DNA from: Candidatus Methylomirabilota bacterium
GTDB lineage: Bacteria; Methylomirabilota; Methylomirabilia; Rokubacteriales; CSP1-6
Direction: 5' to 3'
Length of the DNA: 33,023 nucleotides
Assembly (NCBI GenBank): GCA_036002485.1
Contig: DASYTI010000209.1
Coordinates: 1-33,023 of the forward strand
How positions within the stretch are numbered: the first letter of the stretch is position 1; every line of letters begins with the position of its first letter. Below the pieces are notes generated by a model. That model saw only the letters and a list, made by a program, of their open reading frames with translations, was not told the origin of the DNA and did not search any database. A program made the translations under genes and the position numbers. Positions 23,631-30,068 of this stretch are shown piece by piece.

Positions 23631-23651
23631 CTTGACATATCAGGGCTCAGC
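23631..23651 (+). promoter_or_regulatory. Candidate HspR operator (degenerate HAIR element)
   Basis: CTTGACA-N7-GCTCAGC resembles the HAIR inverted repeat CTTGAGT-N7-ACTCAAG bound by HspR, matching 9 of 14 half-site positions with exact spacing. It overlaps the -35 element and the spacer, where a repressor would act. An hspR gene lies downstream in the same operon, which supports autoregulation. The match is imperfect and partly shared with the -35 box, so confidence is low. Confidence 0.35.
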
Positions 23652-23660
23652 ATATATAAG
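23632..23660 (+). promoter_or_regulatory. Sigma-70 promoter of hsp20-dnaK-dnaJ-hspR-lon
   Basis: TTGACA (23632-23637), a 17-bp spacer and TATAAG (23655-23660) form a near-perfect housekeeping promoter. A/T tracts just upstream (23597-23622) could serve as an UP element. The predicted start is near 23667, leaving a leader of about 50 nt before the strong TAAGGAGG (23705-23712) and the hsp20 ATG. Confidence 0.8.
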
Positions 23661-23718: not shown

Positions 23719-24186
23719 ATGGCTGTGATGCGTTGGCGCAACCAGGGGCTCGAGCCGTGGTCGTCCGCCAGGGACATCGGTGAGGTGCAGGCTGAGGTGA
23801 ACCGGTTCTTCGACGGCTTTTTCGGTCGGGCCTCTGAGTCGGGACTATCGGAGCGCGTATGGGCCCCCGTGGCTGACATGTACGAGACCAAGGACGAGCT
23901 GGTGATCAAGCTGGACCTACCGGGCATGAACGAGAAGGACATCCAGGTGTCTATCACCGGCGATCTCCTGTCCGTCAAGGGCCAGCGTCTGGAGACGCAG
24001 GAGGTCAAGGAGGAGTCGTACTACAGGACCGAGCGGTGGACGGGAAGGTTCGAGAGGATTTTCCAGCTTCCCATCCCCGTGCAGGCCGACAAGGTCCGCG
24101 CCACCTACCGTGAGGGCGTCCTCACCGTGACGCTCCCCAAGGTCGAGGCCGTGAAGCCCAAGGATATCAAGATCGACGTGCAGTAA
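23719..24186 (+). CDS. Small heat-shock protein, Hsp20/alpha-crystallin family
   Basis: A 155-residue ATP-independent holdase chaperone. The alpha-crystallin domain runs from about 47 to 146: [19 protein letters not shown], then [14 protein letters not shown]-like strands, and the consensus [12 protein letters not shown] near the end. The short C-terminal tail has an I-K-I-D-V segment that fits the I/V-x-I/V oligomerisation motif. The N-terminal arm contains [30 protein letters not shown], typical of bacterial class A proteins. It is first in the stress operon, behind a consensus promoter and a full TAAGGAGG ribosome-binding site, and is likely the most highly expressed member. Confidence 0.95.
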
Positions 24187-26207: not shown

Positions 26208-27200
26208 ATGTCCCGTGACTACTACGCGGTTCTCGAGATTGGCGTCGGGGCGACGCCTGCGCAAGTCAAGCGGGCGTATCAGCGCCTGGCCCGGCGGTAC
26301 TCGCCGGACATCAATTTCTGGGACCGCGATACTCAGGCCCTCTTCGAGGAGATCGTCGAAGCCTATCGCGTGCTGAGCGATCCCTCCGCGCGGGGCGTCT
26401 ACGATCGCCACGGGGGTCAAGGCCGTTCACGGCCGGAGAGGGCCAATCCGAAGTCTGCTTTCGGAGGCCGCCGGGGCGACGATGCCCACGTCGCCGTGGA
26501 GCTGTCGTTCGTCCAGGCGGCCTCCGGGGCCTCCGCCGATGTCACCGTCGAGCGCCTCGGGTCGTGTGAGACGTGTGACGGCACGGGCGGCCGCCCCCAT
26601 GCCCCCACCTCGCGCTGCGAGCACTGCGCGGGCGCCGGCACGGTCTGGCGACGCGAAGGAACGCTGACGGCGGACCGCTGTCCCGCCTGCGGCGGCACCG
26701 GCGAGCGGGTCAGCGAGCCGTGCCCCGATTGCCGCGGCCGCGGGCTGCGCCCGGAGCGGACGACGGTGCCGGTGGCCATCCCCGCCGGGGTGGACTCCGG
26801 CGCTCAGATTCGCGTGGCGGGAGAAGGTGATGCCGGACCAGGGGGAGGGCCGAGGGGCGACCTGATCGTCATAGCCCGAGTGCACGAGGACCCTGCCTTC
26901 ACGCGCAAGGGCGACAACCTCCACGTGGAGACGCACGTCACCGTCGCCGAGGCCGTCCTGGGCGCGCGGGTGCCCGTACGGACTCTCGAGGGCACGGCGG
27001 AGCTGGTGGTGCCGCCGGGTACCCAGAGCGGCCAAGTCCTGAGACTGCGCGGGCGCGGGCTGCCGCGGCTCACCAGTCCTGGCCGCGGCGATCTCTTCGT
27101 CACCGTGCGCGTCGAGATTCCGCGCGGCATCGACGCGCGGACCCAGGAGCTCTTTCGCGAGCTCGGCCGGCTGCTCCCGCGACAGGGAGTGGGGTCGTGA
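26208..27200 (+). CDS. dnaJ: DnaJ-type co-chaperone with SPD instead of HPD
   Basis: A 330-residue Hsp40 of the class I layout. The J domain (about 4-68) has YYAVLEIGVGATPAQVKRAYQ and FEEIVEAYRVLSDPSARGVYDR. However, the loop between helices II and III reads RRYSPDIN: the invariant HPD is SPD (Ser32, codon TCG at 26301-26303). His in HPD is required in characterised DnaJ proteins to stimulate DnaK ATPase. The G/F region is very short. All four zinc motifs CxxCxGxG are intact (Cys120/123, 137/140, 158/161, 172/175), and a normal C-terminal substrate-binding region follows. It overlaps hspR by 4 bp. It may be a client-binding holdase, a J protein with altered DnaK contact, or part of the HspR circuit. 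The base call itself needs checking against relatives. Confidence 0.9.
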   Translation: MSRDYYAVLEIGVGATPAQVKRAYQRLARRYSPDINFWDRDTQALFEEIVEAYRVLSDPSARGVYDRHGGQGRSRPERANPKSAFGGRRGDDAHVAVELSFVQAASGASADVTVERLGSCETCDGTGGRPHAPTSRCEHCAGAGTVWRREGTLTADRCPACGGTGERVSEPCPDCRGRGLRPERTTVPVAIPAGVDSGAQIRVAGEGDAGPGGGPRGDLIVIARVHEDPAFTRKGDNLHVETHVTVAEAVLGARVPVRTLEGTAELVVPPGTQSGQVLRLRGRGLPRLTSPGRGDLFVTVRVEIPRGIDARTQELFRELGRLLPRQGVGS

Positions 27201-27583
27201 CAGACAAGGGCAAGCCCCTCTACATGATCGGTGTGGTCGCCGACATGCTGAAGCTTCATCCCCAGACCCTGCGCATGTACGAAAAGAAGGGGTTGATCAG
27301 GCCTTCGCGCACGGAAGGGCGGACCCGGATGTACTCGGCCGGCGACGTCGACGAGATCGCCCGGGTCATCCGGCTCGCTCGGGACCTCGGGGTGAATCTG
27401 GCGGGCATCGAGATCATCCTAAAGATGAGACGGCGGATGCTCGATATGCAGACTCAGATCGAGGACCTGACGAGCTACGTGCAGGGAGAGATGGGGGAGA
27501 TGCGCGATCCAGCCGTCCGCGGCCGCAGCGAGGCCCTGGTGCGGGCCGCCTCGACCCAGCTGAAGCCCGTGGACCTCTTCTGA
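27197..27583 (+). CDS. hspR: MerR-family heat-shock repressor HspR
   Basis: A 128-residue transcription factor with an N-terminal MerR winged helix (about 9-77): YMIGVVADMLKLHPQTLRMYEKKGLIRPSR-type recognition region, RMYSAGDVDEIARVIRLARDLGVNLAGIE. A short coiled coil (about 78-110) follows. There is no metal-binding Cys set, and the LHPQTLRxYE pattern together with the position after dnaK-dnaJ identifies it as HspR. HspR represses dnaK operons by binding HAIR repeats, in some bacteria with DnaK as co-repressor. The GTG start (27197-27199) overlaps the dnaJ stop as GTGA, so the repressor is made in proportion to the chaperones. A degenerate HAIR-like site is present at the hsp20 promoter. Confidence 0.9.
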   Translation: MTDKGKPLYMIGVVADMLKLHPQTLRMYEKKGLIRPSRTEGRTRMYSAGDVDEIARVIRLARDLGVNLAGIEIILKMRRRMLDMQTQIEDLTSYVQGEMGEMRDPAVRGRSEALVRAASTQLKPVDLF

Positions 27584-27605: not shown

Positions 27606-30068
27606 ATGACGGACAAGATGAAGACAGACGGCGGGCCGGCGGACATGGCCGTGCCGGAGATCGTTTCGATCCTGCCCCTGCGCGATCTGGTGGTGTTCCC
27701 GCACGCCGTCCTGCCCCTGGCCGCCGGGCGCGAGTCCTCCCTTCGCTTGATCGAGGACGCGGTTCGCGCGGGCCGACCCATCGGCACCTTCGGTCAGCTC
27801 GACGCGACCATGGACGCGCCGACGGAGAACGACCTGCACAGGATCGGCACCTTCACGGCCATCCACAAGGTGATCAAGCAGCCCGATGGGCCTGTTCGGC
27901 TGGCCGTGCAGGGGCTGTCGCGCATCCGCCTGATCGAAGTGGTCCAGACCCACCCCTTCATGAAGGCGCGGGTGGAAGAGGTGGTCGAGACCATGCCGCC
28001 CGCCGGTGACCTCGAGAGCGAAGCCCTGGTGCGCACGGCCACGACCGTGTTCCGCAAGATCGTGGAGCTCTCGCCGCATCTGCCCGACGAGCTGGCCGAG
28101 GCCATCGCCAACGTCACGCACGCGGGGCGGGTCGCCGACGCCATCGCGGCGTCGCTGCCCTCGCTGACTCCCCAGGCCAAGCAGGAGCTGCTGGCCACGG
28201 CCGACGTCAAGGCACGCCTCCAGCGGCTCGTCGCCCTCCTGACCAAGGAGGCCGAGGTGCTCGAGCTCGGCTCGCGCATCCAGTCCCAGGTCGAATCCGA
28301 GGTCGGCAAGGGCCAGCGGGACTACTACCTCCGGGAGCAGCTCAAGGCCATCCAGAAGGAGCTCGGCCAGAGCGACGATCGCACCCAGGAGATCGACGAG
28401 CTGCGCGGCAAGATCGAGGCGGCCGGCATGACCGAGGAAGCGAAGAAGGAGGCTCTGCGCGAGCTCGACCGCCTCGCCAAGATGCCGCCCGCCGCCGCCG
28501 AGTACACGGTGGCGCGGACCTACCTCGAATGGCTGGTGGCGCTGCCGTGGAGCAAGGAGACGGAGGACACGCTCGACCTGGTGCAGGCACGGACCGTCCT
28601 CGACGACGACCACTCGGGGCTCGAGAAGGTGAAGGAGCGCATTCTCGAGTATCTCGCCGTCAAGAGCATGCGCCCGGTCGGTCGGGACCCCATCCTCTGC
28701 TTCGTGGGTCCTCCCGGCGTGGGCAAGACCTCGCTGGGGCGTTCCATCGCGCGGGCCCTGGGACGGAAATTCCACCGGATCTCGCTCGGCGGCATGCGGG
28801 ATGAGGCGGAGATCCGCGGGCATCGCCGCACCTATATCGGGGCGCTCCCCGGGCAGATCATCCAGGGGTTGCGCCGCGCCGAGTCCAAGAATCCCGTCCT
28901 GATGCTCGACGAGATCGACAAGCTCGGGATGGACTTCCGGGGTGATCCCGCCTCGGCGTTGCTCGAGGTGCTCGATCCGGAGCAGAACGTCGCCTTCCGG
29001 GACCACTACGTGGACGTGGCGTTCGATCTCTCGCGCGTGCTCTTCATCACCACGGCCAACATGCTCGACACGGTGCCCCCGGCCCTCCGGGACCGGATGG
29101 AGATCATCGAGCTGCCGGGTTACACGGAGGAGGAGAAGGTCCAGATCGCGCGCAAGCATCTCGTGCCCAAGCAGGTCCGCGACCATGGACTGACGACCAC
29201 GGGGGGATCGACGACCAGCGAGGGAGCGACCACGGGCGGCGAGGCCGCGCAGATCCGCTTCACGGACGCCGCCCTCACCAACCTGATCCGCCACTATACG
29301 CGCGAGGCGGGGCTGCGGAATCTCGAGCGCGAGATCGCCACCATCACGCGCAAGATCGCCAAGCGCCGGGTCGAGGGCCACGTGGAGCTGGTCGAGGTGA
29401 CGCCAGATCTGGTCGGTGAGCTTCTCGGCGCGCCCCGCTTCCTCGTCGAGGAGCTCGAGGAGCGCACGCGCATCCCCGGAGTCACGGTCGGTCTGGCCTG
29501 GACTCCCGCGGGAGGCGACATTCTCTTCATCGAGGCCACCCGCATGAAGGGCAGCAAGACGCTCACCCTCACCGGCCAGCTCGGAGACGTGATGAAGGAG
29601 TCGGCCCAGGCCGCGCTGTCCTGGGTGCGCTCCCACGCCACCGAGCTCGGCATCCGCTCCGACTTCTGGGAGACGTCGGACATCCATGTCCACATCCCCG
29701 CGGGCGCCATCCCCAAGGATGGGCCATCGGCGGGTGTGACCATGGTGACGGCGCTGGCCTCCCTCATGAGCAGTCGCCCGGTCAAGCCGCGTCTGGCCAT
29801 GACGGGCGAGGTGACGCTCTCGGGCCGGGTGCTGGCCGTGGGCGGCATAAAGGAAAAGGTGCTGGCCGCGCGTCGCGCGGGCGTGACGACGGTGATCCTG
29901 CCGCGTCGGAACGAGAAGAACCTGCTCGAGGACGTGCCGAAGCATCTGCGCGAATCCATGACCTTCCATCTCGTGGATTCGGTCGAGGAGGCCCTGGATC
30001 TCGCGCTCGAGGACGCCCTTCCGAGAAGCGGCCGGATGAAGGACGCCCTGGTGCCCTCGCGGAACTGA
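27606..30068 (+). CDS. lon: ATP-dependent protease Lon
   Basis: An 820-residue LonA-type protease. The N-terminal substrate domain spans about 17-205 (ILPLRDLVVFPHAVLPL), followed by a helical region (205-310, QRDYYLREQLKAIQKELG). The AAA+ module has Walker A GPPGVGKT at 368-375 and Walker B VLMLDEIDK at about 431-439. The protease domain has catalytic Ser708 (KDGPSAG) and Lys751 (GGIKEKVLAARR). A Thr/Gly/Ser-rich insertion at about 529-548 lies in the small alpha domain, where E. coli Lon has no such low-complexity stretch. It begins 22 bp after hspR with AAAGGA upstream, and an out-of-frame ATG at 27601 just before. It is the last gene of the stress operon, so proteolysis and chaperones are co-regulated. 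Confidence 0.97.
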   Translation: MTDKMKTDGGPADMAVPEIVSILPLRDLVVFPHAVLPLAAGRESSLRLIEDAVRAGRPIGTFGQLDATMDAPTENDLHRIGTFTAIHKVIKQPDGPVRLAVQGLSRIRLIEVVQTHPFMKARVEEVVETMPPAGDLESEALVRTATTVFRKIVELSPHLPDELAEAIANVTHAGRVADAIAASLPSLTPQAKQELLATADVKARLQRLVALLTKEAEVLELGSRIQSQVESEVGKGQRDYYLREQLKAIQKELGQSDDRTQEIDELRGKIEAAGMTEEAKKEALRELDRLAKMPPAAAEYTVARTYLEWLVALPWSKETEDTLDLVQARTVLDDDHSGLEKVKERILEYLAVKSMRPVGRDPILCFVGPPGVGKTSLGRSIARALGRKFHRISLGGMRDEAEIRGHRRTYIGALPGQIIQGLRRAESKNPVLMLDEIDKLGMDFRGDPASALLEVLDPEQNVAFRDHYVDVAFDLSRVLFITTANMLDTVPPALRDRMEIIELPGYTEEEKVQIARKHLVPKQVRDHGLTTTGGSTTSEGATTGGEAAQIRFTDAALTNLIRHYTREAGLRNLEREIATITRKIAKRRVEGHVELVEVTPDLVGELLGAPRFLVEELEERTRIPGVTVGLAWTPAGGDILFIEATRMKGSKTLTLTGQLGDVMKESAQAALSWVRSHATELGIRSDFWETSDIHVHIPAGAIPKDGPSAGVTMVTALASLMSSRPVKPRLAMTGEVTLSGRVLAVGGIKEKVLAARRAGVTTVILPRRNEKNLLEDVPKHLRESMTFHLVDSVEEALDLALEDALPRSGRMKDALVPSRN

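Follow-up and report, generated by a model that had tools for sequence, protein, structure and literature searches.

Rokubacteria are uncultured soil and groundwater bacteria. The window analysed here, the whole 33,023-nucleotide stretch of contig DASYTI010000209.1, derives from a Candidatus Methylomirabilota bacterium of the order Rokubacteriales and carries hsp20, dnaK, dnaJ, hspR and lon, in this order and all on the forward strand (Table 1). As stated in a preliminary description of this DNA, dnaJ lies between dnaK and hspR. The dnaK-dnaJ-hspR-lon order is kept in 46 named Rokubacteria loci.

Table 1. Features of the dnaK-dnaJ-hspR operon and of its dnaJ gene in the window
Feature	Position	Strand	Evidence
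Operon promoter: -35 box covered by the HspR-like operator cTTGACA-N7-GCTCA, -10 box TATAAG	23631..23660	+	Comparative motif
hsp20, first gene of the operon	23719..24186	+	PF00011, 82 bits
dnaK, sole DnaK of the genome	24267..26201	+	NCBIfam DnaK, 1038 bits
dnaJ with SPD J domain, 330 aa	26208..27200	+	Pfam and NCBIfam matches
J domain, residues 4-66	26217..26405	+	PF00226, 60.3 bits; four helices in AlphaFold model
S-P-D codons replacing HPD, residues 32-34	26301..26309	+	Direct reading; SPD in 59/59 orthologues
Codon for Glu47, equivalent to Lys48 of E. coli DnaJ	26346..26348	+	K48 comparison; D477 contact from PMC8215388
Short linker in place of the G/F region	26412..26471	+	Length comparison; disordered in model
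DnaJ C-terminal client-binding domain, zinc part inserted	26487..27122	+	PF01556, 155 bits
Four CxxCxGxG zinc motifs, residues 120-179	26565..26744	+	PF00684, 40.5 bits
hspR, MerR-type heat-shock repressor, overlaps dnaJ stop	27197..27583	+	NF047375, 108.4 bits (cut-off 105)
Lineage-specific HspR C-terminal tail LKPVDLF	27560..27580	+	HspR C-terminus comparison
lon protease, downstream	27606..30068	+	Pfam Lon domains

The dnaJ product begins MSRDYYAVLEIGVGATPAQVKRAYQRLARRYSPDINFWD. The Y-S-P-D reported for its J domain is correct: a Tyr codon TAC (26298-26300) is followed by TCG-CCG-GAC, and SPD stands in place of HPD in the context RRYSPDINFWD. The Pfam matches to DnaJ, DnaJ_C and DnaJ_CXXCXGXG all exceed their cut-offs; thus, both the J domain and the DnaJ that carries it are genuine. 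An AlphaFold model (mean pLDDT 78.5, pTM 0.52) has a four-helix J domain and the usual body, joined by a short disordered linker (residues 72-86), and in Foldseek it groups with solved DnaJ structures (6jzb, E 1.9e-27). Among the features of a class A DnaJ, the protein has the J fold, the four zinc motifs and the C-terminal client-binding domain. It lacks the HPD motif and the G/F-rich region, and scores 304.1 bits against the DnaJ_bact equivalog TIGR02349, below the cut-off of 377.2.

The preliminary description had asked whether related genomes show HPD at this place, as expected if SPD were an error. Within Rokubacteriales this is not so, and the error reading fails: SPD occurs in 59 of the 59 genomes, from four families, with a readable dnaK-dnaJ-hspR locus, in orthologues that reach down to about 44-52% identity with the window protein. 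In contrast, the syntenic gene encodes HPD in 29 of 29 readable genomes of six other families in the same class (24 read by script and five by eye), where the gene order is dnaK-hsp20-dnaJ-hspR. In a maximum-likelihood tree (midpoint root), all SPD proteins form one clade (support 100/99) that joins the HPD operonic DnaJs (99/98), apart from the grpE-linked DnaJs. Based on synteny and this tree, the operonic HPD DnaJ of the sister families is the orthologue of the SPD DnaJ, and the single SPD clade indicates that HPD was replaced a single time, before Rokubacteriales diversified. The Ser codons are uniformly TCN (43 TCG, 10 TCC, 4 TCT and 2 TCA), a pattern expected from one origin; a change from His (CAY) to Ser (TCN) requires two base changes. 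When 84,980 species were scanned for LAR[QR]YSPDV and GPRGDL[IVM]V[IS], SPD relatives came from Rokubacteria/Methylomirabilota only, a result that for SPD covers the one peptide of the first seed.

Pairwise J-domain dN/dS among SPD proteins is 0.11-0.29, except in one very close pair (dS 0.11) with a value of 0.45, and is similar to that of the J domain of the canonical grpE-linked DnaJ. These ratios indicate that SPD dnaJ is under purifying selection and, with the intact frames, bear out the earlier view that the gene is not decaying. All genomes compared are uncultured assemblies, and the source itself is a metagenome-type assembly with many contigs, the one circumstance that speaks for a sequencing or assembly error or a pseudogene. 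Given 59 agreeing assemblies, intact frames and purifying selection, we consider this explanation ruled out, with a negligible residual probability.

The replacement of His is accompanied by other changes relative to the HPD orthologues, all on one branch and to be counted as one event (positions follow E. coli K-12 DnaJ). Besides H33 to S (59/59), the SPD clade has K62 to A (56/59), P38 to F, L or V, G39 to W, K46 to L, E55 to R, Q65 to M, L or V and Q68 to R, while K48, which is K in 100% of the HPD orthologues, is mostly E, D or G. The J domain of this lineage has gained newly conserved F, W, L and R positions. P34, D35 and R63 do not vary, 98% of the proteins retain N37, and R22 and R27 are kept, with a helix II net charge of +3.9 versus +4.5 in the HPD orthologues. 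The stretch from the J domain (from YD) to the body spans 18-26 residues in most SPD proteins, namely wherever it was measurable by script, compared with about 57-62 in the HPD orthologues; the alignment shows no GF-rich stretch, and the G/F region is absent. The window DnaJ has the equivalents of K48 to E and K62 to A, its SPDxN is followed by a new F-W, and its G/F linker is far shorter. The claim that the rest of its J domain is intact is therefore not entirely accurate. The claim that four zinc motifs are intact is right for the window and does not extend to the clade, in which the inner two CxxC motifs are missing from 48 of the 59 orthologues and only two remain. The genome of the window and 10 others keep all four. 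By family, four motifs occur in the branch of the window and in f2, whereas f3, f4 and most members of f1 have two, a distribution that makes repeated loss of the inner zinc pair within the order probable.

In the contact between DnaJ and DnaK, H33 touches the carbonyl of L391 in the DnaK linker and K48 bridges to D477 in the DnaK substrate domain, whereas D35 contacts R167 and Q378, and P34 contacts P419 (PMC8215388). Set against the substitutions of the clade, two coupling contacts (H33 and K48) are gone and two docking contacts (P34 and D35) are kept. A change of His to Gln in HPD abolishes ATPase stimulation in every system tested (PMC8215388).

On the side of DnaK, the J-contact residues R167, E206, E217, Q378, L391, P419 and D477 are essentially unchanged in Rokubacteria, in a comparison in which the D211 loop was not alignable. 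There is therefore no sign here of a DnaK adapted to SPD, and a compensating DnaK is rejected at the known contact positions. The proposal of a changed contact between the SPD protein and its own DnaK is left unsupported by these unchanged residues; moreover, the same single DnaK must also serve HPD DnaJs. We also rejected a second DnaK specialised for the SPD protein; the other full-length Hsp70 adjoins an hscB-like gene and looks HscA-like. This HscB-HscA-like pair lies on contig C51, and its HscB-like J domain has HPD.

The canonical HPD DnaJ and the GrpE that were predicted to exist elsewhere in the genome were both found, adjoining each other on contig C143. A DnaJ of the grpE-linked type is present, whole or in pieces, in 60 of 60 Rokubacteriales genomes. 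Contig C199 of the window genome encodes a further DnaJ/CbpA-type protein with HPD, and contig C41 (20219-20380, minus strand) a short J protein in which a hydrophobic segment at the N-terminus accompanies an HPD J domain (YHPDRTEG). In DnaK, the clamp pair D326/K414 (E. coli numbering) is Q/A in the genus of the window and its relatives, and D/R in other Rokubacteriales and the sister families; the Q/A branch is the branch that keeps four zinc motifs in its SPD DnaJ.

The motif TTGACA-N7-[AG]CTCA overlaps the -35 box of a sigma-70 type promoter upstream of the operon and has a single copy in the window (23632). One copy lies upstream of the operon in 31 of the 46 Rokubacteria loci, several of the others being too short upstream. 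It was not found on the opposite strand of the loci, nor in the available fragments of grpE-dnaJ loci. A third half-site, GTACTCAA, lies directly after the -10 box in the operon promoters of many relatives. The motif resembles the outer halves of the HspR operator HAIR, which has the consensus CTTGAGT-N7-ACTCAAG; a search for the strict consensus with up to three mismatches gave no site at the operon promoter.

HspR itself differs between the lineages. In Rokubacteriales it ends in a sequence like EALVRAASxQLxPVDLF, in the sister families in one like GLVPVGRRGLxRR; 53 of 55 distinct Rokubacteriales sequences have a C-terminal Phe and an acidic residue at the third position from the end. The sister-family DnaJs differ from the SPD DnaJ in having HPD, K48, K62, the long linker and four zinc motifs, and in standing beside an HspR with the other type of tail. 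In one assembly (G004) dnaJ and hspR are both missing. We rejected this joint loss as evidence of coupling because the assembly lacks the operonic dnaK as well and thus probably does not contain the operon at all.

J-domain proteins with a clear J domain in which HPD is non-conservatively replaced are defined as type IV, or pseudo, J-domain proteins (PMC13254874). The SPD DnaJ shows both features and, classified by its sequence, is a type IV protein by this definition, with a class A architecture minus the G/F region. The kind is already known from DNAJB13 (HPL), Pam16/Magmas (DKE/DKS) and the type IV proteins of Plasmodium (PMC13254874, PMC8605242, PMC10349383). Like the SPD DnaJ, these combine a recognisable J domain with a non-conservative change of HPD, and DNAJB13 also keeps a full client-binding body. 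Unlike the SPD DnaJ, they are eukaryotic and have other residues changed; the SPD protein is bacterial, lies in a dnaK-hspR operon, keeps P and D, and has lost the G/F region.

For a J protein acting on HspR there are two models. In Helicobacter pylori, the hspR operon encodes the J protein CbpA, which binds HspR and interferes with its binding to DNA, while in Streptomyces coelicolor DnaK supports HspR instead (PMC6032397). CbpA of H. pylori resembles the SPD DnaJ in being a J protein in an hspR operon under HspR control (PMC6032397, PMC7074700); SPD dnaJ is encoded with hspR under a putative HspR-like operator, as judged by resemblance to the HAIR consensus. H. pylori CbpA differs in that it stimulates the DnaK ATPase and has no zinc region. 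In Escherichia coli, the MerR-like CbpM covers the DnaK face of the J domain of CbpA when it binds (PMC4063869), and HspR might sit on the SPD J domain in a similar way. Unlike HspR, CbpM does not bind DNA as a repressor, and the CbpA J domain is active, which the SPD J domain would not be on our reading. Together these precedents make a role of the SPD J domain in the HspR circuit reasonable, not proven.

The Rokubacterial operonic DnaJ is very probably a former DnaK activator that has taken on a different role, perhaps holding clients or acting together with HspR. Loss of the His, of Lys48 and of the G/F linker, with an HPD DnaJ as backup, makes it very probable that the SPD DnaJ no longer stimulates the DnaK ATPase, although the mutants in the literature are His to Gln and the residue here is Ser. 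With a modest degree of preference, we take the protein to be a fixed, order-wide pseudo-J protein that binds clients uncoupled from DnaK within the HspR heat-shock circuit. In this scheme, the operonic DnaJ of the Rokubacteriales ancestor would have lost Lys48, the long G/F linker and the His in contact with the interdomain linker of DnaK, while the grpE-linked HPD DnaJ would have remained the usual co-chaperone of the single DnaK. The SPD protein would keep its client-binding body and have its J domain refitted as a binding surface. Co-expressed with DnaK and HspR from the HspR-like promoter, it could modulate HspR according to client load, much as CbpA does in H. pylori. Confidence differs between the parts: the loss of stimulation is strongly supported by the mutant data in the literature, client holding moderately supported, and direct action on HspR with the J domain as contact weakly to moderately supported.

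Against the pseudo-J reading, P34, D35 and the positive helix II are kept, as if docking on DnaK still mattered, and Hsp70 can be stimulated by a designed analogue of the J domain that has no HPD (PMC13254874). The retained Pro-Asp and helix II allow the main rival, in which the SPD J domain binds DnaK through helix II, Pro and Asp without firing hydrolysis; it would then either be a competitor of the HPD DnaJ or bring DnaK, without trapping, to HspR or other sites. Competition and recruitment are both listed as options for such proteins in a 2026 review (PMC13254874), and the invariance of P34 and D35, the near-invariance of N37, the preserved R22, R27 and helix II charge, and DnaK residues R167, Q378 and P419 all fit it. 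However, the K48 by which the J domain is positioned on DnaK has been lost, and the new F, W and L residues near the loop suggest another partner, so that we consider this rival rather unlikely. If the Ser served in place of His in a J domain tuned to its own DnaK, the protein would still be an active co-chaperone; it shares an operon with DnaK and keeps PD, and HPE is tolerated with HscC (PMC13254874). This is highly improbable, given the unchanged DnaK contact residues shared with HPD DnaJs and the accompanying loss of K48 and the linker.

The protein might instead be a general ATP-independent holdase with no link to HspR, its place in the operon merely inherited. Such a role agrees with the retained client-binding body and outer zinc pair and with the loss of the G/F linker and often of the inner zinc pair, the inner zinc centre being the one that reportedly serves DnaK-coupled work. 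A pure holdase would not need a J domain so strictly conserved, with newly conserved positions besides, and we regard this alternative as improbable. The conservation of the operon, the HspR-like operator and the lineage-specific HspR tail make us lean towards an HspR circuit over a plain holdase. A bolder form of the HspR reading, tentative and quite unlikely in our view, is that the SPD J domain is a dedicated dock for the altered HspR tail (...QLxPVDLF-COOH), client-free DnaJ holding or releasing HspR. If true, a former DnaK activator would now sense misfolding for the heat-shock repressor and would do so without DnaK, unlike the situation for Streptomyces HspR.

In the searchable literature, mostly without subscription papers, we did not find a bacterial, operon-borne, order-wide SPD form. 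Whether J proteins with altered HPD are accidents or selected, and competitors or recruiters of Hsp70, is unsettled according to the 2026 review (PMC13254874). Here, one bacterial order has a nearly full-length DnaJ with a change that arose once, is present in 59 of 59 genomes and is accompanied by co-changes, which speaks against accident in this case. Living sister families supply HPD orthologues at the same locus as controls. With one DnaK, one GrpE, SPD and HPD DnaJs and HspR, Rokubacteria offer a compact bacterial system for pseudo-J function, and annotators should not presume a co-chaperone function for the "dnaJ" of their dnaK operon.
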